Source: Natronococcus occultus SP4
GTDB taxonomy: Archaea > Halobacteriota > Halobacteria > Halobacteriales > Natrialbaceae
Direction of reading: 5' to 3'
DNA: 64,000 nucleotides
Assembly (NCBI RefSeq): GCF_000328685.1
Contig: NC_019974.1
Coordinates: 2,719,001 to 2,783,000, forward strand
A program made the translations under genes and the position numbers. Under the pieces are notes generated by a model. The model ran no database searches. It was not told the origin of the DNA and worked only from the letters and a program-made list of their open reading frames with translations. Shown here in pieces: positions 36,107-49,422 of this stretch (position 1 is the first letter of the stretch; every line of letters starts with the position of its first letter).

Positions 36107-36197
36107 ATTCGATGTGCTGAGGATGTCGAATATGCGTCGTTGTTTGCTCATGGATGTGGAGACAAATTCCGACCGGCAGGCACAGAATGGGTATTTC

Positions 36198-36205
36198 CAT
36201 ATATC
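36198..36205 (+). promoter_or_regulatory. TATA-like box for the vapBC pair
   Basis: CATATATC is followed by an AT-rich run and ATG 36244. The predicted transcript start near 36229 leaves a leader of about 15 bases. The local AT richness differs from the flanking genes. Confidence 0.5.
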
Positions 36206-36243
36206 GGGGAACATTTTTACTTTCACCCACCATACACCAAAAC

Positions 36244-36474
36244 ATGGCAGACATAGCGCTGGACGACCGTGGTCGCCTCACGCTCCCGAAGGAGGTTCGA
36301 GAGCGATATGGAGACCGATATCACGTCGTTCAGCTTCCCGACGGGGTCAAATTGGTTCCGGTCGCCGACGACCCGCTCGAGGCACTCAAGGACGAGTTCG
36401 CGGACGTCGAGAAATCGGCTGACGAGCTTCGTGACGAAGCTCGTGACGCAGCGCTCGACGAGGCTGGACGATAG
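36244..36474 (+). CDS. vapB: AbrB/SpoVT-type antitoxin (VapB)
   Basis: A 76-residue protein. The first 45 residues form a swapped-hairpin AbrB DNA-binding fold ('MADIALDDRGRLTLPKEVRE', 'VVQLPDGVKLVPVADDP'). The rest is an acidic helical tail ('KDEFADVEKSADELRDEARD') that would wrap and neutralise the toxin. The start ATG 36244 follows a CATATATC promoter. Stop and toxin start are adjacent (36474/36475), the usual coupled TA layout. Antitoxins of this type also repress their own promoter. Confidence 0.85.
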   Translation: MADIALDDRGRLTLPKEVRERYGDRYHVVQLPDGVKLVPVADDPLEALKDEFADVEKSADELRDEARDAALDEAGR

Positions 36475-36846
36475 ATGTATGCAGAAACCGATTTTCTCCT
36501 CGCGCTGATTAAGGACGACGACTGGCTCGGAGAGGCCGCTGAGTCGGTGTACCGAGAGCACCGAGACGAGTTGTGGACGTCACAGTTCACGCTCATCGAA
36601 CTCCTGATGGTCGCCTACCGGGAAGAACGCGATACCGAGCGTGTCGTCTCGAACGCTGCCAACCTCGTCGAGGTGCGTGGTGACGTGGAGACGGTCGTCA
36701 CAGCGGCGACGTACGTCGAAGACCACGGATTCACACCGTTCGACGCACTCCACCTCGTCGAATCTAACGGCGATACCATCGTCTCGAGCGACGATGCGTA
36801 CGACGGTGTCACTTCCCGCCTCGATTTGAAAACGGCCGACGAGTAA
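36475..36846 (+). CDS. vapC: PIN-domain toxin (VapC)
   Basis: A 123-residue PIN ribonuclease. Acidic residues expected at the metal site are seen: Asp6 in 'AETDFLLAL', Glu42 in 'FTLIELLMVAYRE', Asp92 in 'TPFDALHL' and the 'SSDDAY' pair near residue 106. VapC toxins cleave tRNA or rRNA when freed from VapB. The gene is directly coupled to vapB and lies 43 bases upstream of rfcL on the same strand. A decayed second copy of its 3' end is at 35906-35976. Confidence 0.85.
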   Translation: MYAETDFLLALIKDDDWLGEAAESVYREHRDELWTSQFTLIELLMVAYREERDTERVVSNAANLVEVRGDVETVVTAATYVEDHGFTPFDALHLVESNGDTIVSSDDAYDGVTSRLDLKTADE

Positions 36847-36889: not shown

Positions 36890-38377
36890 ATGAGCGACTG
36901 GACCGAGACGTACCGCCCGACGACGCTGTCGGAGGTGCGCGGCAACAACAAGGCCCGGGACCAGCTCGAGGAGTGGGCCGAGAGCTGGGACGATCACCGA
37001 AAGGCGGTGATCGTCCACGGGAGTCCCGGCGTGGGGAAGACCTCGGCGGCCCACGCGCTGGCCAACGATATGGGCTGGCCCGTGATGGAGCTCAACGCCA
37101 GCGACAGCCGCGGCGCGGACGTGATCGAGCGCGTCGCGGGCGAAGCCTCGAAGAGCGGCACCCTCACCGCGGGCGGCTCCGGGCGACGGCTCGTGATCTT
37201 AGACGAGGCGGACAACTTCCACGGGAACGCCGACTACGGCGGCTCGCGCGAGGTCACGCGGGTCGTCAAGGACGCGAGCCAGCCAATGGTGCTGATCGCC
37301 AACGAGTTCTACGAGATGAGCCAGTCGCTGCGGGACGCCTGCGAAACGATCGAGTTCCGGGACGTCTCGAAGCGATCGATCGTTCCCGTCCTGCGAGACA
37401 TCTGCCGACGCGAGGACGTCGAGTTCGAGGAGGAGGCCTTAGAGAAAATCGCCGAATCGACCAGCGGCGACCTGCGGTCGGCGGTCAACGACCTTCAGGC
37501 GGTCGCCGAGGAGGCCGAGCGCCTGACAGTCGAGGACGTCGTGACGAGCGAGCGCGACACCACCGAGGGGATCTTCGACTTCCTGGACGCCCTGATCAAA
37601 GAGGAGGACGCCCAGGGGGCGCTGTACGCCTCTTACGACGTCGACGAGACGCCCGACGACCTGCTGAACTGGATCGAGGACAACGTGCCCAAGGACTACG
37701 AGGGCGCGGAGCTGGCCGACGCCTACGAGTTCCTCTCGAACGCCGACCGCTGGCTCGGTCGCGTGCGGGCCACGCAGAACTACTCGTTCTGGCGGTACGC
37801 CACCGACAACATGACCGCGGGAGTCGCGGCCTCTCGCCGCGATCCGAAAGGGGGCTGGACCCGCTACGGGCCGCCCAGCTACTGGTCGAAGCTCGGCCGC
37901 ACGAAGGGCACCCGTAACACCCGCGACGCCATCGCCGAACGGATCGCCGAGCGGGAGGGAACGAGCGTCGCGACGGCTCGCCGGGAGATCCTTCCGTTCC
38001 TCTCGGCGATGACCCACCACTGCAAGAACCGCGAGCTGACGGTGCGGATGGCGGCCACCTACGAGCTCGACGAGGGTGAGGTCTCCTTTGTTACCGGCAG
38101 CGGGAAGACGACCAACAAGGTCGAGTCGATCGTCGAAGACGCCGCGGAGCGACGCGAGGAGCAGGCGGTCGAACACTCCGGAAACGCCTTCTTCGGGAGC
38201 GCCTCGAGCGACGCCGACCTCGAGGACGTCGATGTAGGCGATGAGGGGACCGGTGACGACCAGCAGTCGCTCGGGGCCGTCGCCGAGACCGAAGGCGAGG
38301 GGACGTCCTCGGAGGGGACGACCGACGAGCCCGCCGAATCCGACGACGACCAGTCCGGCCTCTCGGATTTCATGTGA
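36890..38377 (+). CDS. rfcL: Replication factor C large subunit
   Basis: A 495-residue clamp loader subunit that loads PCNA on primed DNA. Motifs: Walker A 'VHGSPGVGKTSAAHALAN', Walker B 'RRLVILDEADNFHG' and the sensor segment 'VLIANEFYEM'. The C terminus is a long acidic tail ending 'DQSGLSDFM', a PIP-box-like PCNA-binding motif (Q-x-x-L-x-x-F). The promoter-like CTAAAC (36860-36865) about 28 bases before ATG 36890 suggests a leaderless mRNA of its own, so the inserted vapBC should not silence it. Confidence 0.96.
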   Translation: MSDWTETYRPTTLSEVRGNNKARDQLEEWAESWDDHRKAVIVHGSPGVGKTSAAHALANDMGWPVMELNASDSRGADVIERVAGEASKSGTLTAGGSGRRLVILDEADNFHGNADYGGSREVTRVVKDASQPMVLIANEFYEMSQSLRDACETIEFRDVSKRSIVPVLRDICRREDVEFEEEALEKIAESTSGDLRSAVNDLQAVAEEAERLTVEDVVTSERDTTEGIFDFLDALIKEEDAQGALYASYDVDETPDDLLNWIEDNVPKDYEGAELADAYEFLSNADRWLGRVRATQNYSFWRYATDNMTAGVAASRRDPKGGWTRYGPPSYWSKLGRTKGTRNTRDAIAERIAEREGTSVATARREILPFLSAMTHHCKNRELTVRMAATYELDEGEVSFVTGSGKTTNKVESIVEDAAERREEQAVEHSGNAFFGSASSDADLEDVDVGDEGTGDDQQSLGAVAETEGEGTSSEGTTDEPAESDDDQSGLSDFM

Positions 38378-38472: not shown

Positions 38473-38658
38473 ATGACCGACTACGACTGCCCGCTTTGCT
38501 CGGAGGAGTACGAGGGGCGGACGGAGCTCCGGGTGCACCTCGAGGTCAAACACCGAAAATCCGAGATCGTCTCGTCGTTTATCGATTCGGCGGTGGGCCG
38601 TTCGTCGGGGGGCGACGAGCGGACGCTCGAGGATGACCGGCCCGCAGCACCGCTTTGA
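38473..38658 (+). CDS. Small C2H2 zinc-finger protein
   Basis: A 61-residue product starting at ATG 38473. Residues 5-26 form a classical C2H2 finger: 'CPLCSEEYEGRTELRVHLEVKH' read as C-x2-C-x12-H-x4-H in pieces. A Ser/Asp-rich tail follows. Haloarchaea carry many such one-finger proteins, some affecting motility or lipid and biofilm regulation; the role of this one is unknown. Confidence 0.75.
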   Translation: MTDYDCPLCSEEYEGRTELRVHLEVKHRKSEIVSSFIDSAVGRSSGGDERTLEDDRPAAPL

Positions 38659-38703
38659 GCGCGGGCGACGTTTTGCCGTTCCGTTCGGCGACCGCGGGCT
38701 GAC

Positions 38704-39912
38704 TCAGAGAAGACCGACTTCAGTTCCGGCCGCCTGGAACGCCTCGAGACAGGCGACGATATCGTCCCGGTCGTGGGCCGCGGTTGGGGAGACCCGGAGC
38801 CGACAGCGATCGTCGGGGACGACTGGCGGTCGAAGCGCCGGGACGATCACGTTTCGATCCCGGACACCGGCCGCGAGATCCAGCGTATCCTTCCGATCGC
38901 CGACGAGGACGGGGAGGAGCTGTGAGTCGCCGAGCACCTCGAACCCCATCGACTCGAGCCCGTCCCGGAGGTGGGCGACGTTCTCCCAGAGCTGTTCGCG
39001 AGCGTCGCCGTGGCGGGCGAGGTGAAGCGCTTCGCTGGCAGCCGCGGCGGCCATCGGCGTGAGCCCGGTCGAGTGGGCAAACGGCCGGGCCTCGTTTGCG
39101 ACCAGCTCGACGAGCGCGTCGCTGCCCGCGATGTAGCCGCCCTGACTCGCAAGCGCCTGCGAGAGCGTGCCGAGCTGGATGTGGATCCGGTCCTCGAGCC
39201 CCTCGGCCTGGACGACGCCGCCGCCGTCGGCGTACAGTCCCGTCGCGTGGGCCTCGTCGACCATCACCCACGCGCCGAACTCCTCGGCGGCCTCGCAGAT
39301 CGACCCCAGCGGAGCGACGGTCCCGTTCGTGGGGAAGACGGTGTCGGTGACGATCAGCCACGACTCGTCCGTGGAGCTGGCTCGGCCGGCTCGCTCCGCC
39401 AGCTCGGCTCGAAGGCTGGCGGCGTCGCAGTGGTCGTAGACGACCGTCTCGGCGTCCGAGAGCCGACAGCCGTCGACGATGCTCGCGTGGTTGCGCTCGT
39501 CGGAGAAGATCACGTCCGGCTCGAGGGCCGTGATCGTCCCCACATTGGCGGCGTACCCGGAGGAGAAGGCGAGCGCGCGGTCGGTGCCCTTCGTCTCCGC
39601 GAGCAGCCGCTCGAGATCCCGGTGGACGAGCGTGTCGCCAGTGAGCAGTCGGCTCGCTCCGGCACCCGTTCCGACGGTGGCGCCGGCCTGGCGCGCCGCG
39701 TCCTGAACCCGCTGGTCGGCGGTGAGCCCGAGGTAGTTGTTCGACGCGAACACGAGCGCCTCCTCGGAGTCGAGCACCGGGAGCTCGCCTCCCGACGGCG
39801 CCGCGAAGTACCCCCGCTCGGCAATGCGGTCGACGGGCGCGAGCGATCGTTTCTGGTCGTCCTCGACAAGGACGTCGAGCCGACCCTCGAGGTCGAACCC
39901 GCGGTCTTCCAT
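38704..39912 (-). CDS. bioF: BioF-like aminoacyl-CoA synthase with PLP lysine replaced by Gln
   Basis: A 402-residue fold-type I PLP protein of the 8-amino-7-oxononanoate synthase/glycine C-acetyltransferase family: 'FASNNYLGLTADQRVQDAA', 'GTGAGASRLLTGDTLVHRDL', 'SDERNHASIVDGCRLS', 'VMVDEAHATGLYADGGG'. The cofactor lysine should be in 'GTLSKAL'; here residue 252 is Gln ('LGTLSQALASQGGY', codon CAG at 39159-39157). One base change (A to C) would explain it. No bioB, bioA or bioD is nearby. Either the enzyme is dead, has another role, or the base is a sequencing error. Confidence 0.8.
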   Translation of the reverse strand: MEDRGFDLEGRLDVLVEDDQKRSLAPVDRIAERGYFAAPSGGELPVLDSEEALVFASNNYLGLTADQRVQDAARQAGATVGTGAGASRLLTGDTLVHRDLERLLAETKGTDRALAFSSGYAANVGTITALEPDVIFSDERNHASIVDGCRLSDAETVVYDHCDAASLRAELAERAGRASSTDESWLIVTDTVFPTNGTVAPLGSICEAAEEFGAWVMVDEAHATGLYADGGGVVQAEGLEDRIHIQLGTLSQALASQGGYIAGSDALVELVANEARPFAHSTGLTPMAAAAASEALHLARHGDAREQLWENVAHLRDGLESMGFEVLGDSQLLPVLVGDRKDTLDLAAGVRDRNVIVPALRPPVVPDDRCRLRVSPTAAHDRDDIVACLEAFQAAGTEVGLL

Positions 39913-40080
39913 TCGAGTAAAGGGAGTCCGCCCCGTGTTTTCACTGTCACGGTTCGCGTCGGCGTCCCGCCGGACCGGTTAGCGCCCCCGTTCGCGCCGC
40001 AGACGCCCGGGAGCGCGCCGTTCCGATAGTGTGTCTCTGTCGCGGTGACGGGATACGCTTGCAAGTCAAGGGGTTCGACA

Positions 40081-40087
40081 TTATATA
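40081..40087 (+). promoter_or_regulatory. TATA box for the GMC oxidoreductase operon
   Basis: TTATATA is centred about 26 bases before ATG 40110, so the transcript should begin at or next to the start codon (leaderless). Confidence 0.6.
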
Positions 40088-40109
40088 CGGGTTCGGCGTC
40101 GGGCGTTCT

Positions 40110-41123
40110 ATGCCGGACACCAATCCCCGGTTCGACTTCACCCGCCGCGAGGCGATCGCAGCAGGCGGTGGCTTCGTCGGGCTAAGCATCGTCGCCAGGC
40201 GCGCGGCGGCCTCGAGCGAGTTCTCGCTCGAGGACGTCGAGGAGGCCGAGATCGAAGAGCAAGGCTTGCAGTTTTTCAGCCTCGAGCAGGGCCAGATCGT
40301 CCAGGATATGGCCAACCGGATCTACCCGTCCGACGACAACGGGCCAGGTGCCCCCGAGGCCGGCGTTGTCTACTTCATCGACCGACAGATGAACCAGGAC
40401 TGGGGGCAGGGCGAACGCTGGTACATGGAGGGGCCGTTTCCCGGCGTCGAGCAACTCGATCTGGACACGGGGGTGGAAGAAGCCACTCCTATCGGCGGAC
40501 CCGTCGGCGGCGAGGGGGTGGGCGAACCGGCCGAACACGACGGCGCGGACGAAGGCGACGGGCACGACGCCGACGACGGCGAAGACGAGATCGAAGACGA
40601 CGAGGCGGCGGAAGAGGTCGAAGAGCAGGAGGGTGACCCCGGAGAGCCGGAGGAGGACGACGTCGAAGTCGAGTGGGCCGGCGAAGAGCCGGCCGAGGGA
40701 CAGGGCTGGCAACAGCCCCTGACGCCGGCAGAAGCGTACACCTACTCGATCGACTTCGTCGAGGCGTACTGCGAGGCAGAGTACGACGAGAGCTTCGTCG
40801 ACCTCGACGGCGACGAGCAAGACGAGGTCATCGAGGCCCTTCAGAACGACGAGGTCGGGACGTTCCGTGGACTCGAACCGAGCGACTTCTTTGGTCTGTT
40901 GCGAGCGAACACGCTTGAGGGAATGTTCGCCGACCCGATGTACGGCGGCAACCAGGAGATGATCGGCTGGCGGCTGAAGAACTTCCCCGGCACGCCCGGT
41001 TCGCTCGGGAGTTACCGCGCGAACATCCAGGACGAGGAGTACTTCGAGATCGACGAACCGCGGAGCATGGCCGACGACGTCCAGGAGCAGGGGCTCAACC
41101 CGGACGGCGATCACAGCCACTGA
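40110..41123 (+). CDS. Tat-exported small subunit of a GMC dehydrogenase (gluconate 2-dehydrogenase subunit 3 type)
   Basis: A 337-residue protein. Residues 10-35 are a Tat signal ('FTRREAIAAGGGFVGLSIVA'). The conserved subunit-3 parts are 'LEQGQIVQDMANRIYPSDDN', 'GPGAPEAGVVYFIDRQM' and the C-terminal 'GMFADPMYGGNQEMIGWRLK'. Between them, about residues 120-205 is an extra Glu/Asp/Gly-rich insert. The small subunit probably carries the large subunit, which has no signal, through the Tat pore. The large subunit gene follows after 55 bases. Confidence 0.85.
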   Translation: MPDTNPRFDFTRREAIAAGGGFVGLSIVARRAAASSEFSLEDVEEAEIEEQGLQFFSLEQGQIVQDMANRIYPSDDNGPGAPEAGVVYFIDRQMNQDWGQGERWYMEGPFPGVEQLDLDTGVEEATPIGGPVGGEGVGEPAEHDGADEGDGHDADDGEDEIEDDEAAEEVEEQEGDPGEPEEDDVEVEWAGEEPAEGQGWQQPLTPAEAYTYSIDFVEAYCEAEYDESFVDLDGDEQDEVIEALQNDEVGTFRGLEPSDFFGLLRANTLEGMFADPMYGGNQEMIGWRLKNFPGTPGSLGSYRANIQDEEYFEIDEPRSMADDVQEQGLNPDGDHSH

Positions 41124-41178
41124 AGAGAACGGGCAGCAGCGACCGAAGCAACGAAACCCAATCAAGAGACTGAGCAAC

Positions 41179-42948
41179 ATGGTACAAGAACTCGATCCCG
41201 TCGACGTCGTCACCGTCGGCGTGGGCTGGACCGGCGGCATCATCGCGAAAGAACTGGCGGAAGAAGGCTACGAGGTGGTCGGCTTAGAACGCGGCGGCGA
41301 GCGTTCGACGGAAGATTGGCTCACTGTCCACGACGAACTGGGCTACGCCCTGCGATACAAGCTGATGCAGGACCTCTCCCGGGAGACGATTACCTTTCGA
41401 CACGAGCCGGGAGACACGGCGCTACCGATGCGTCGATACGGCGCCTTCCTTCCGGGGACCGGCGTCGGCGGGGCCGGCGTCCACTGGAACGGCGTCACCT
41501 GGCGGTTCCTCCCGTACGATTTCGAGATCAGATCCGAGACGATCGATCGGTACGGCGAGGACGCGATCCCCGAGGAGATGCAGCTTCAGGACTGGGGGAT
41601 CACCTACGAGGAACTCGAGCCCTACTTCGATGAATTCGAGTACATGGCCGGTATCTCGGGCGTCGCCGGTAACATCGAGGGCGAGATCCAGGACGACGGC
41701 AACCCCTACGAAGGACCCCGGTCCCGGGACTTTCCGCTGCCGCCGATGATGGAGACACCGGCGCTCGAGACCTTCATGGACGGCGCCGAGGAGGCTGGAT
41801 TCGAGCCGTTCATCCAGCCATCGGCGAACCTCTCCGAACCGTACGAGAACACCGACGGCGTGCAACTCGGGCAGTGCGAGTACTGTGGCTACTGCGAACG
41901 GTTCGGTTGTGAATGGGGTGCGAAATCCGATCCGACCGTAACTGTCCTCCCGGTCGCCCACGAGACGGGGAACTTCGAACTGCGAACCCACTCGAACGTC
42001 GTCGAGTTGCTCTACGACGAGGACGCCGAGGAGGTGACCGGCGTCAAGTACGTCGACCACCGGACGAACGACGTCTACGAGCAGCCTGCGGACGTCGTCG
42101 CGCTCACTGCCTACGTCCTCAACAACGTCCGGCTGCTCTTGCTGTCGGAGATCGGCGAACCGTACGACCCCGAGACGGGTGAGGGAGTTGTCGGGAAGAA
42201 CTACTGTTATCAGAACTTCGGCGGCGCCGCGACGGGCTTTTTCGACGACGAAGAGTGGAACCTCTATATGGGTGCCGGCGCGCTCGGGGCTGCCTTCGAC
42301 GACATCAACGGCGACAACTTCGATCACGGAGACCGCGACTTCCTGCACGGTGGCTCGGTTTCGATGAGCCAGACCGGCGAGCGGCCGATCGCGAACAATC
42401 CCGTTCCCGAGGAGACGCCATCGTGGGGCTCGGAGTTCAAAGAGCAGAGCCTCGAGTACAACCACAGCTCGCTGTCGATCTCGTGTCAGGGTGCGGTTCT
42501 CCCCTTCCAGGACAACTACCTCGACCTCGACCCGAACTACACCGACGACTACGGGCTCCCGCTGCTCCGGATGACGTTCAACTGGCACGAGCAGGACTAC
42601 GCCCTCTCGGAGTTCGCGAGCGACGTCTGCGAACGTGTGATGGAGGAGATGGGCGCCGACACCGTCGACGCGACCGGCGGTCTCGAGGGCGACTTCGACA
42701 TCATCCCCTACCAGTCGACTCACAACACCGGCGGTGCAATCATGGGTGCCGATCCCGAGGAATCGGTCGTCAACAGCTACCTGCAGTGCTGGGACGCGCA
42801 CAACCTCTTCGTTCCGGGCGCGTCGGCGTTCGCCCACAACAGCGGCTACAACCCGACCGGAACCGTCGGCGCGCTGGCGTTTCGCGCCGCCGAGGGGATC
42901 CAGGAGTACCTGGACAGCCCCGACCTGCTCGCCAGCCCCGAAGCGTAA
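41179..42948 (+). CDS. GMC-family FAD-dependent dehydrogenase, large subunit
   Basis: A 589-residue flavoprotein that oxidises a sugar or alcohol. FAD-binding 'VTVGVGWTGGIIAKELAEEG' starts at residue 11, 'FLPGTGVGGAGVHWNGVTWR' is the GMC flavin segment, and the C-terminal 'AFAHNSGYNPTGTVGALAFR' holds the active-site His/Asn. A cluster 'CEYCGYCERFGC' near residue 233 resembles the Fe-S-like Cys motif of related sugar dehydrogenases. No Tat signal of its own; export by the small subunit is inferred. No cytochrome subunit gene is present, so the electron acceptor is unknown. Confidence 0.85.
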   Translation: MVQELDPVDVVTVGVGWTGGIIAKELAEEGYEVVGLERGGERSTEDWLTVHDELGYALRYKLMQDLSRETITFRHEPGDTALPMRRYGAFLPGTGVGGAGVHWNGVTWRFLPYDFEIRSETIDRYGEDAIPEEMQLQDWGITYEELEPYFDEFEYMAGISGVAGNIEGEIQDDGNPYEGPRSRDFPLPPMMETPALETFMDGAEEAGFEPFIQPSANLSEPYENTDGVQLGQCEYCGYCERFGCEWGAKSDPTVTVLPVAHETGNFELRTHSNVVELLYDEDAEEVTGVKYVDHRTNDVYEQPADVVALTAYVLNNVRLLLLSEIGEPYDPETGEGVVGKNYCYQNFGGAATGFFDDEEWNLYMGAGALGAAFDDINGDNFDHGDRDFLHGGSVSMSQTGERPIANNPVPEETPSWGSEFKEQSLEYNHSSLSISCQGAVLPFQDNYLDLDPNYTDDYGLPLLRMTFNWHEQDYALSEFASDVCERVMEEMGADTVDATGGLEGDFDIIPYQSTHNTGGAIMGADPEESVVNSYLQCWDAHNLFVPGASAFAHNSGYNPTGTVGALAFRAAEGIQEYLDSPDLLASPEA

Positions 42949-43124
42949 CGGTGGTCGGTAGTACGGATTTCGTATCCGACCCTGTTGTCGAATCCGAGTC
43001 GGTCGACCCGTCACGCCGACGCGGCGAAGGCGACCGAGGCGGTACCGCTCGATCTCAAATTGCCGCATAATACGGAGAGCGGTCCGACAAGGAACTTATC
43101 AGAGTCGAGGGTCTCAACACGTGT

Positions 43125-45545
43125 ATGAGTGAACGGGCGGGGTCCTCTGAAGCAACGTTCTGGGGTGATGTGGACGACACCGAGGCCCTCCAGCACCACC
43201 GTACCCTCCTCGATACGATCGACGACGGGCTCTACCGACTCGACGCCGACGGCCGCCTCGTCTCGGTTAACGACGTCCTCGTCGAGATGACCGGGTACAC
43301 GCGCGAGGAGCTGCTCGACGAGCACGTGTCCGTGCTCTTCGGCGGCGACGGTGCGACGGTCGAACACGAGATCGACCGTCTCCGAGCGAACGGCTCCGAC
43401 CAAAGCGAGCCACTCGATCTCACCGTGGAAACCGCCGGGGGAAAACGGGTTCGCTGTGAACTTCGGATGAGCGTGCTCGACGAGGACGATCCCGTCCGGG
43501 GAACGCTCGGAATCGTTCGCGAAGTTAGCGAACGCAACCGGGCGGAAACGAAAGCCACCGAAGCGACCTTTCGTCGCCTGTTCGAGAACGTCCCCGGCAA
43601 CTACCTCATCGTTCAGCCCGGGGAGTACGAAATCGTGGCCGTGAGCGATGCGTATCTGGACGCGACGATGACCGAGCGGGAGGAGATCCTGGGCAAGACG
43701 TTGTTCGAGATCTTCCCGAACAATCCCGACGACCCGGCCGATGGCGTCGAGAACCTGCGCGAGTCGCTCGAGAGAGTAGCGGAGGACGGGGAAGCGGACA
43801 CCATGCCGGTGACGCACTATCCGATCCCCGACCGCGAGTCCGGCGGCGACGACTTCGAGGAGCGCTGGTGGAGTCCGGTCAACTCGCCGGTGTTTGATAC
43901 GGACGGCGAAATCGACTACATCATCCACAGCGTCGAGGACATCACACCGATCGTCCAGGAGCTCCAGGCGGACGGCGAGCAGGAGCTGCTACAGGATCCC
44001 GACGCGACGGACTCACAGCTCGCGTCGGACATCGTGCTGCGCGGACAGGAGTTACTCCAGCAGGCGAAGCAAGAAGCGTACGAACAGCTACGCGAGAGCG
44101 AAGAACGGTTTCGCGCCTTGGTCACGACCACGTCGGACGCGGTGTTCAGTACGAACGCGGACTGGAGCGAGATGCACAGCCTGGAAGGGGCAGAGTTCCT
44201 TGCTGATACCGACGAGCACGATCCGTCGTGGATTGAAAAACACGTCCCGCCCGAAGATCAGCCGCGCGTTCGAGAAGCCATCGACGAAGCCATCCGCACG
44301 AAAAGCAGCTTCGAGCTGGAACACCGGGTCGTTCGCGAAGACGGTACCGTCGCCTGGATCGTCTCGCGTGCCACGCCGCTCCTGAACGAGGACGGCGAAA
44401 TCACTCGGTGGCTGGGTGCGGCAAACGACGTGACCGAGCGGGTCGAACGCGAACGCTACCTCGAGGACGCAAAAGAGCGCCTGGAGGCGGCGACCGAAGC
44501 CGGCGCCGTCGGGACCTGGGAGTGGCAGATTCCCGAGGACCAGATTTTCACGGGCGCTTCGTTCGCCGAGACGTTCGGGATCGATCCCGAGACGGCTACC
44601 GAGGGTGTATCGGTCGACCAGTTCGTCTCGGCGATCCACGACGACGATCGCGAGCGGGTCGAGCGAAAGATCGAGGACACCATCGAATCAGGAGCGGAGT
44701 TCGAAGAAGAGTACCGCGTCTGGGACGCCGACGGCGACCTCCGGTGGGTCGTCGCACGCGGGCACGTCGAGTACGACGACGACGGGAATCCGGTAACGTT
44801 TCCCGGTGCCCTGGCCGACATCACGGAGCGCAAACAGTTCGAGCGACGGCTCGAGAAATCCAACAAGCGCCTCGAACAGTTCGCGTACGCCGCTTCACAC
44901 GATCTGCAGGAGCCCCTGCGGATGGTCACGAGCTATCTCAAGCTGATCGAGCGTCGCTACGCGGACGAACTCGACGAGGACGCCGAGGAGTTCATCGAGT
45001 TCGCCATCGACGGCGCCGAGCGGATGCGCGACATGATCGAGGGACTGCTCCAGTATTCGCGGATCGAAACGCGCGGCGATCCCTTCGAGCCGATCGATCT
45101 GGACGCCGTTCTCGAGGCCGTTCGCCAGGACCTTCGGATGAGGATCGAAGAGAGCGACGCCGAAATCACGGCCGAGTCGTTGCCTCGTGTCGAGGGCGAT
45201 CCGGGACAGTTACGCCAGGTGCTCCAGAACCTGCTCTCGAACGCGATCGAGTACAGCGGCGACGAGCCGCCGCAGGTGGATATTTCGGCCGTTCGGAACG
45301 GTTCGGACGTAATCGTTTCAGTCACTGACGAGGGGATCGGCATCGAGCCGGACGACAGCGATCGCGTCTTCGAGGTGTTCCAGAGCTTGCACGCCCAGGA
45401 CGAGCATTCGGGAGCCGGGATCGGCCTCGCGCTCTGTAACCGCATCGTCGAGCGCCACGGCGGCGATATCTGGGTGGAGTCCGAACCGGGCGAGGGCGCG
45501 ACGTTCTCGTTCGAGCTCCCCGCTGCAAGCGCCGACGAGGCGTGA
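43125..45545 (+). CDS. Multi-PAS sensor histidine kinase
   Basis: An 806-residue soluble kinase. Four PAS-like domains are visible: about 28-140 ('TIDDGLYRLDADGRLVSVND'), 145-275, 325-445 ('WIVSRATPLLNEDGEITRWL') and 450-580 ('GAVGTWEWQIPEDQIFTGAS'). HisKA has His592 in 'YAASHDLQEPLRM', then HATPase_c with 'LLSNAIEYSGDEP' and 'GAGIGLALCNRIVERHG'. A TATA-like AACTTATC (43093-43100) predicts a leaderless start. PAS cofactors are unknown. Its kinase core is close to that of the kinase at 10031. Confidence 0.88.
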   Translation: MSERAGSSEATFWGDVDDTEALQHHRTLLDTIDDGLYRLDADGRLVSVNDVLVEMTGYTREELLDEHVSVLFGGDGATVEHEIDRLRANGSDQSEPLDLTVETAGGKRVRCELRMSVLDEDDPVRGTLGIVREVSERNRAETKATEATFRRLFENVPGNYLIVQPGEYEIVAVSDAYLDATMTEREEILGKTLFEIFPNNPDDPADGVENLRESLERVAEDGEADTMPVTHYPIPDRESGGDDFEERWWSPVNSPVFDTDGEIDYIIHSVEDITPIVQELQADGEQELLQDPDATDSQLASDIVLRGQELLQQAKQEAYEQLRESEERFRALVTTTSDAVFSTNADWSEMHSLEGAEFLADTDEHDPSWIEKHVPPEDQPRVREAIDEAIRTKSSFELEHRVVREDGTVAWIVSRATPLLNEDGEITRWLGAANDVTERVERERYLEDAKERLEAATEAGAVGTWEWQIPEDQIFTGASFAETFGIDPETATEGVSVDQFVSAIHDDDRERVERKIEDTIESGAEFEEEYRVWDADGDLRWVVARGHVEYDDDGNPVTFPGALADITERKQFERRLEKSNKRLEQFAYAASHDLQEPLRMVTSYLKLIERRYADELDEDAEEFIEFAIDGAERMRDMIEGLLQYSRIETRGDPFEPIDLDAVLEAVRQDLRMRIEESDAEITAESLPRVEGDPGQLRQVLQNLLSNAIEYSGDEPPQVDISAVRNGSDVIVSVTDEGIGIEPDDSDRVFEVFQSLHAQDEHSGAGIGLALCNRIVERHGGDIWVESEPGEGATFSFELPAASADEA

Positions 45546-45618
45546 ATCCACCTACTGAACGCGTTCTCGCGGCCAGCGCTGAACGAGGAACCGTGCTCCC
45601 GAGTAGCGGTGCGATCGC

Positions 45619-47401: not shown

Positions 47402-48274
47402 TTAGTCGAGGAACTCCTCGATGTGGTCGGCGACCTCCTCGGGGGTGTCGCCGACTGGGACGCCCGCGTCGTTCAGCGCCGAGATCTTGCTCTCGGCGGT
47501 CCCGGTGCCGGAGCCGGAGACGATGGCGCCCGCGTGGCCCATCCGCTTGCCCGGCGGAGCCGTGCGGCCGGCGATGAAGCCGGCGACCGGCGTGTCGACG
47601 TAGTCGTCGATGAACGCCGCGGCCTCCTCCTCGTCCTCGCCGCCGATCTCGCCGCACATGACGATGGCGTCGGTCTCGGGGTCGTCCTCGAACAGCTCGA
47701 GGGCGTCGACGAAGTCGGTACCGATGATCGGGTCGCCGCCGATCCCGATCGCGGTGCTCTGGCCGAGCCCGCGGTTGGTGAGGTTGTCGACGACCTGGTA
47801 GGTCAGGGTGCCCGACCGGGAGACCAGACCGACGTTCCCCTCCGAGAAGATGTTGCCCGGCAGGATGCCCAGCTTGGCCTCGCCGGGGGTGATGAGCCCC
47901 GGACAGTTCGGGCCGATGAGTCGCGTGTCGGTCTCGGTGAGGCGCTTGTTGACTCGTGCCATGTCCTGGGTCGGGATGCCCTCCGTGATCGCGACCGCGA
48001 GGTCGAGGTCCGTATCGAGGGACTCGAAGACCGCGTCACCGGCGAAGGCTGGTGGGACGAAGATCACCGAGGTGTCGGCGTTCTCCTCCTCGACGGCCTC
48101 GTGGACCGTGTCGTAGACGGGGACGCCCTCGACCTCCTGACCGCCCTTGCCGGGGACGGCGCCCGCGACGACGTTGGTACCGTACTCCATCATCTGCTTG
48201 GCGTGGAACTTGCCTTCCCCGCCGGTGATGCCCTGTACCACGACGCGCGTGTCGTCGTCGACTAGTACACTCAT
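47402..48274 (-). CDS. sucD: Succinyl-CoA synthetase alpha subunit
   Basis: A 290-residue TCA-cycle subunit that carries the phosphohistidine intermediate while interconverting succinyl-CoA and succinate plus nucleotide. Motifs: '[20 protein letters not shown]' (CoA site), '[20 protein letters not shown]' and the catalytic His in '[17 protein letters not shown]'. The start overlaps the sucC stop (ATGA), so expression is coupled. Confidence 0.96.
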
Positions 48275-49422
48275 GCTTGTCCCTCCTCAGCGTACTCGAC
48301 GGCACGCTGGACCGCGTCCTCGAGGGTCTGTTCGACCGTCACGAGGTCCTCGTTGAGAATCTCCATACCTTCCTCCCAGTTGGTCCCGGCCAGTCGGACG
48401 ACGACCGGCTTCGGGATCTCGTCGAACTGCTCCAGGGCCTCGTTGATCCCGCGGGCGACCTCGTCGCCACGGGTGATCCCGCCGAAGATGTTGAAGACGA
48501 CGCTGTCGACGTTGTCGTCCGAGAACACCATATCGAGCGCGTTCGCGATTCGCTCGGCCTTCGCGCCGCCACCGACGTCCAGGAAGTTCGCGGGCTCGCC
48601 GCCGTAGTGATCGACCAGGTCGAGCGTGGTCATCACGAGACCGGCGCCGTTACCGATGATGCCCGTGTTCCCCTCCAGCCGAACGTAGTCGAAGTCGTAC
48701 TCGTCGGCCTTCTGCTCGAGGTCGTCGCCGCCGCTTGCGGCCTCGGCCTCCATCTCGGCCAGTTCGGGCTGGCGGAACAGTGCGTCCTCGTCGATGTTCA
48801 TCACGGCGTCGGCCGCGATGACCTCGTCGTCGTCGGTGACCATCAGCGGGTTGATCTCCGCGTCGGAGCCGTCACGGTCGTCCCAGAGCTGGTAGAGCGT
48901 TGTCAGCACGCTCGAGACGTCGCGGGCGACGGCCTTGTCGACGCCGGCGTCGTAAACGGCCTTGCGGGCCTGGTAGGGGTGCATGCCAAAGGAAGGGTCG
49001 ATGTGTTCGCGGGCGATCGCCTCGGGATCCTCCTCGGCGACCTCCTCGATGTTGACGCCACCCTTCGTCGAGACCATCGCGACGGGCTTGCCCTCGCCGC
49101 GGTCCATCGTGATGCCGACGTACAGTTCGTCGACGAAGTCGACCGCTCCCTCGACGAGAACCTGATCGACGTGATACCCCTTGAGGTCCATCCCGATGAT
49201 CGATTCGGCTGCCTCGCGGGCCTCCTCCTCGTTCTCGACGAGTTCGATCCCGCCGGCTTTCCCCCGACCGCCGACCTGTACCTGTGCCTTGACCGCGACC
49301 GGATAGCCGATCTCCTCGGCTGCGGTCAGTACGCCGTCGACGTCCGAAGCGAGCTCTGACTCCGGCGTCGGAATTCCGGCGTCGGCGAAGACTTGCTTCG
49401 CCTGGTACTCATGTAGTTTCAT
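48271..49422 (-). CDS. sucC: Succinyl-CoA synthetase beta subunit
   Basis: A 383-residue subunit with an ATP-grasp domain ('[20 protein letters not shown]', '[20 protein letters not shown]') and a C-terminal CoA-ligase part ('[20 protein letters not shown]', '[20 protein letters not shown]'). It binds the nucleotide and forms the heterodimer with SucD. First gene of the sucCD operon, with 161 bases between its start and the divergent small gene. Confidence 0.96.

Follow-up and report, generated by a model that had tools for sequence, protein, structure and literature searches.

In the alpha-oxoamine synthase (AOS) family, hLCB1 provides a precedent for a protein without the PLP lysine (PMC3794620). 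Like the haloarchaeal proteins described here, LCB1/SPTLC1 has the AOS fold, lacks this lysine and is maintained by selection, but it needs the lysine-bearing LCB2, whereas a second AOS protein is missing from most of the haloarchaeal genomes with a lysine-less copy. A second point of comparison is Nab. magadii, which is auxotrophic for biotin and has BioYMN (PMC3403918). We found no description of a lysine-less haloarchaeal BioF in the literature, and searches of plasmid and phage collections shed no light on the lysine loss.

One such protein is encoded in the window, the 64,000-nucleotide stretch of Natronococcus occultus SP4 analysed here. It is a direct orthologue of BioF (AONS, TIGR00858): the two agree in fold, in sequence family and in their ancestral place in the operon bioB-bioU-bioF-bioD. 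Unlike BioF, it has no PLP lysine, carries a changed FSMDG motif and has no adjacent biotin genes; its score, like that of lysine-bearing haloarchaeal BioF, lies below the equivalog cut-off.

The window protein lacks the PLP lysine and has an altered second motif

The orphan bioF-like gene occupies positions 38704-39912 on the minus strand and encodes a 402-residue AOS-family protein. Translated from 39912 to 38704, it reads HIQLGTLSQALASQGGY around Gln252, and the same open reading frame carries GTLSQALASQGGY. Codon 252 is CAG (39159-39157, minus strand). In alignments with structurally solved members of the AOS family, this residue falls on the Schiff-base lysine, so that the glutamine reported by the first-pass annotation stands. 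Where a functional AONS has the lysine of G-T-L-S-K, the window protein has Gln252; the alignment of homologues that the annotation had proposed places Lys at this position in all eight congeners, the nearest of which are 85-88% identical to the window copy.

The substitution is accompanied by changes in a second motif. Residues 193-197 (39322-39336, minus strand), which read FSMDG in 78 of 79 operon-linked orthologues and would do so in a functional AONS, read FPTNG in the window protein (S194P, M195T, D196N). The earlier description of the other active-site blocks as intact is thus only partly right. The remaining lysines of the protein, at positions 21, 108 and 341, all lie outside the PLP motif, and four of its lysine-less relatives contain no lysine whatever, which leaves them without any residue that could form the Schiff base instead. 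Replacement of K252 by another lysine, which would have undone the original observation, is thereby ruled out.

Sequence and predicted fold place the protein in the AOS family. Its top NCBIfam match is TIGR00858 bioF, at 359 bits against a cut-off of 426 that lysine-bearing haloarchaeal BioF proteins also miss. It belongs to AOS fold type I by sequence (phmmer E of 3e-65). Its AlphaFold2 model has a pLDDT of 88.9 and retrieves 2-amino-3-ketobutyrate CoA ligases, ALAS, SPT and AONS in Foldseek (E of 1e-38 to 5e-38), and a relative with no lysines at all (L145, Halobiforma haloterrestris) is predicted to fold as well (pLDDT 91.0). Older lysine-less copies retain 97 of 143 enzyme-invariant positions, while catalytic and substrate-binding positions drift. 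Because the substrate-site residues R22, R361, R373 and T282 vary among lysine-less copies, any ligand would differ from the substrates of BioF.

The biotin operon has been removed from around bioF

In relatives, the gene order is sucC-sucD ... bioB-bioU-bioF-bioD, with rfcL convergent; the gene between bioB and bioF is BioU (NF047886, E 4.5e-99, below its curated cut-off). The window locus retains sucC-sucD (47414-49422, minus strand) upstream and the convergent neighbour rfcL (36890-38374, plus strand), which by gene order in relatives mark the ancestral bioF site. Its bioB, bioU and bioD are gone, and the linkage to biotin genes expected of a functional AONS has gone with them, in agreement with the earlier remark that no other biotin genes are near. 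The best explanation is that the window gene is the ancestral chromosomal bioF of the Natrialbaceae.

The two losses can be traced by comparison with sister species. At the place of bioB-bioU lies a foreign segment of ~5.6 kb (39957-45608; blastn breakpoints against L016, L018 and L020) that encodes a gluconate-2-DH subunit 3, a GMC oxidoreductase and a PAS histidine kinase (40029-45545; Pfam). On the other side, the scar of a bioD deletion (38573-38686) measures ~112 bp, compared with ~740 bp in the sister L020. Homology to L020 breaks off 44 bp before the start codon of bioF and 18 bp past the stop codon, which places both breakpoints just outside that codon and a 17-bp upstream element described below.

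A second bioF, whose existence the first-pass annotation had suggested checking, is present in the genome. The 288-kb contig C3 carries all four genes, bioB-bioU-bioF-bioD. Its BioF has the lysine, is 56% identical to the window protein and groups in the tree with extra Natrialba copies and with Halocatena.

Two neighbouring features were also observed. Behind rfcL, at 36154-36846, an AbrB-like gene and a PIN-domain gene appear on inspection of the sequence to form a VapBC-like toxin-antitoxin arrangement, and the PIN gene is conserved at the same place in relatives. Upstream of bioF in L145, L143, L155 and L156 lies a divergent gene for a very acidic, low-complexity protein with the motifs DELFG, SPEDIIASADEP and LLLTGRT. 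It has no Pfam match and is conserved near sucD/bioF in the Natrialbaceae. We considered it as a specific functional partner and rejected it, since it adjoins lysine-bearing copies (L026, L039) as well as many orphans.

A promoter-like element accompanies bioF

The 17-bp element GAACCGTGACAGTGAAA (39939-39955, minus strand) lies at -43 to -27 of the window bioF. It is a perfect match, occurs once in the genome and lies 2 bp inside the breakpoint. Across the family, GAAYCGTGANARTNAAA sits at exactly this distance from bioF. Of 18 lysine-less copies, 17 match it exactly and the last differs at two positions. Where the lysine is kept, 79 of 86 operon copies and 10 of 11 orphans show no more than one mismatch. 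Conservation reaches 1.75 bits per base where the lysine is missing and 1.74 where it is present but drops to ~0.3 immediately upstream, so the element has sharp edges. Each of ten bioF-bearing genomes has a single perfect match, which lies at bioF, and no such match occurs in three genomes that lack the gene. The element is absent from nearly all bioF copies outside the Natrialbaceae and from acquired operons; genera g2 and g7 (L166, L167, L169-L171, L174-L176) lack it in their operon copies. Genus g2 has a different conserved sequence upstream of bioF, CGAACCGTTCAAG.

Judging from its position, the element is probably a promoter, and bioF is likely to be transcribed as a separate unit even where the operon is complete. 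Such an arrangement would explain why bioF alone survives.

Lysine loss recurs among orphan copies

We surveyed 125 Natrialbaceae genomes, 118 of which have a strong bioF match. Among 143 copies, position 252 is Lys in 123, Thr in 12, Met, Asn and Ala in two each, and Ser and Gln in one each. All 20 lysine-less copies have an open frame. A class-wide pattern scan, which recovers only copies that fit the pattern, gave no lysine-less copy outside the Natrialbaceae among the matches listed. In the trees, the window copy stands beside lysine-bearing Natronococcus, G043 (Thr) beside G045 (Lys) and G049 (Ala) beside G046/G048 (Lys), while one older lysine-less clade spans genera g17, g18, g22 and g24. 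Starred branches force four lysine changes, a count that omits G029, G120, G039 and G040b because of their long branches, so the lysine was lost independently at least four times. The finding thus goes beyond the single gene first noted: in the Natrialbaceae, and specific to this family, BioF has repeatedly turned into an orphan that lacks the lysine yet is under selection, and the window copy is one of the youngest cases.

Loss of the lysine goes with loss of the operon context. With linkage defined as bioU (at least 100 aa) or bioD adjoining bioF, all 94 linked copies among 128 keep both the lysine and the SM of FSMDG; the 34 orphans have lost SM in 31 cases and the lysine in 20. Every lysine-less copy is an orphan. 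Phylogenetically independent pairs point in the same direction, with too few pairs for significance. Moreover, bioF is kept in 14 of 16 near-complete genomes that lack both bioB and bioD. Biotin uptake was rejected as a discriminator, since BioY occurs in 28 of 29 tested genomes, lysine-bearing or not.

The Natrialba orphans, for example that of genome G054, which we take to be Nab. magadii, share with the window copy the orphan site, the -43 element and the loss of M from FSMDG, reading FSVDG or FSADG instead. Unlike the window copy, they keep the lysine, and their sequences look like an earlier, intermediate step of the same course. In Natrialba swarupiae (L172, G049), an internally deleted bioB remnant lies directly upstream of an intact Ala252 bioF; here the pathway is caught decaying while bioF stays intact. 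We also observed lysine-less BioF proteins with long low-complexity insertions (L153-L157 in G110-G114; 444-476 aa), in frame and under purifying selection.

Older lysine-less lineages are under purifying selection

Selection was measured with a GY94 codon model (F3x4) written for the present analysis. Within three lysine-less groups, dN/dS is 0.11, 0.09 and 0.10, and neutrality is rejected (LRT 192, 298 and 207). Pairwise comparisons of lysine-less proteins agree with strong purifying selection. Values near 0.1 inside these groups mean that the protein was selected after the lysine had gone. G043 is an exception, where the test does not reject neutrality (LRT 2.5).

On the window branch, dN/dS is 0.096 against a background of 0.042 (LRT 7.2), and a value of 1 is rejected when the entire branch is considered (LRT 23). 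Of the 23 derived changes on this branch, 11 fall at positions that are invariant in the enzyme and 10.5 would be expected there, so these positions show no depletion, as one would expect without constraint. An unconstrained phase over the last ~6% of the branch would fit the averaged dN/dS equally well. Taken together, the possible ~6% phase and the even spread of changes make decay and retained function indistinguishable for the window copy alone.

Alternatives to a retained, non-catalytic protein

The first-pass annotation had left three options: a wrong base, early decay or a non-catalytic role. Although a single base separates CAG from a lysine codon, a base-call error at 39159 is scarcely credible given the second altered motif (S194P, M195T, D196N), the loss of every operon partner and the fact that relatives have lost the lysine independently three more times; the 20 lysine-less copies in the family point the same way. 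Early decay deserves more weight for the window copy, and we regard it as a real though minority possibility. Under this reading, the C3 operon arrived and left the chromosomal bioF a redundant young pseudogene whose frame is open by chance. The redundant lysine-bearing BioF, the raised dN/dS and the even spread of derived changes over invariant positions all fit, and a recent loss over the end of the branch would yield the same average. A pseudogene in the sense of a broken frame or neutral evolution is not what we see, however: the frame is open and neutrality is rejected branch-wide, though constraint may have been lost recently. Constraint is clear in the older lineages without the lysine, no lysine-less orphan has a broken frame, and the deletions at the window locus spare exactly the element and the open reading frame.

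Two further readings would keep the protein in catalysis. It might still be an enzyme with altered chemistry, using non-covalent PLP or none; at the PLP site, Asp219 and His222 mostly persist, and a solved K265A mutant of SPT holds a PLP-inhibitor aldimine (PDB 4bmk). We consider this unlikely, as many copies have lost His142, Thr282, Arg361, Arg373 and the FSM motif, and five carry Arg in place of Gly119. Alternatively, the lysine-less subunit could pair with a lysine-bearing AOS subunit into an active heterodimer, as in eukaryotic serine palmitoyltransferase. The hLCB1 precedent lends this idea some appeal, and a second, lysine-bearing BioF exists in the window genome (on C3) and in G088, G091 and G092. 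At least 13 lysine-less genomes, however, encode a single AOS-family protein; heterodimers are rejected as a general explanation, and we hold them to be quite improbable overall.

BioF as a probable pseudoenzyme

Of the options first listed, a non-catalytic role is well supported for the older lysine-less lineages (dN/dS 0.09-0.11, LRT 192-298) and is the best reading for the window copy. We consider it probable that BioF, once orphaned, persists as a homodimeric pseudoenzyme whose second role does not need the lysine; the window copy would be an ancestral, orphaned example with its own promoter. Loss of bioB, bioU and bioD, in the window genome displaced by the complete C3 operon, would have orphaned the chromosomal bioF. 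From known AOS chemistry, an orphan that has lost the PLP lysine and the FSMDG motif could no longer make KAPA. It would have been retained through its second job and its own promoter, most likely working as a homodimer that still folds and that, without catalysing a reaction, binds some partner or ligand. The second role, perhaps as scaffold or regulator, may have arisen while the gene was still in the operon, and the window copy may still perform it. The chances seem roughly even that bioF of the Natrialbaceae had already acquired a regulatory element of its own, as well as a second function without catalysis, when the operon was lost, and that the protein has since survived repeatedly as a selected homodimeric pseudoenzyme free of the PLP lysine, in some cases of any lysine. 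It would then serve, perhaps as regulator or scaffold, where the cell makes no biotin or uses another BioF.

The related haloarchaeal losses suggest that bioF has taken on a non-catalytic job. Repeated loss of the PLP lysine with the protein kept is a natural experiment in the conversion of a metabolic enzyme into a pseudoenzyme, and it comes as a series: the operon enzyme, the lysine-bearing orphan (FSVDG, Natrialba), the fresh loss in the window and the long-lived lysine-free clades. For the haloarchaea, the presence of BioF does not equal biotin synthesis. The gene-specific, promoter-like element goes with a proposed hidden function that can be tested.
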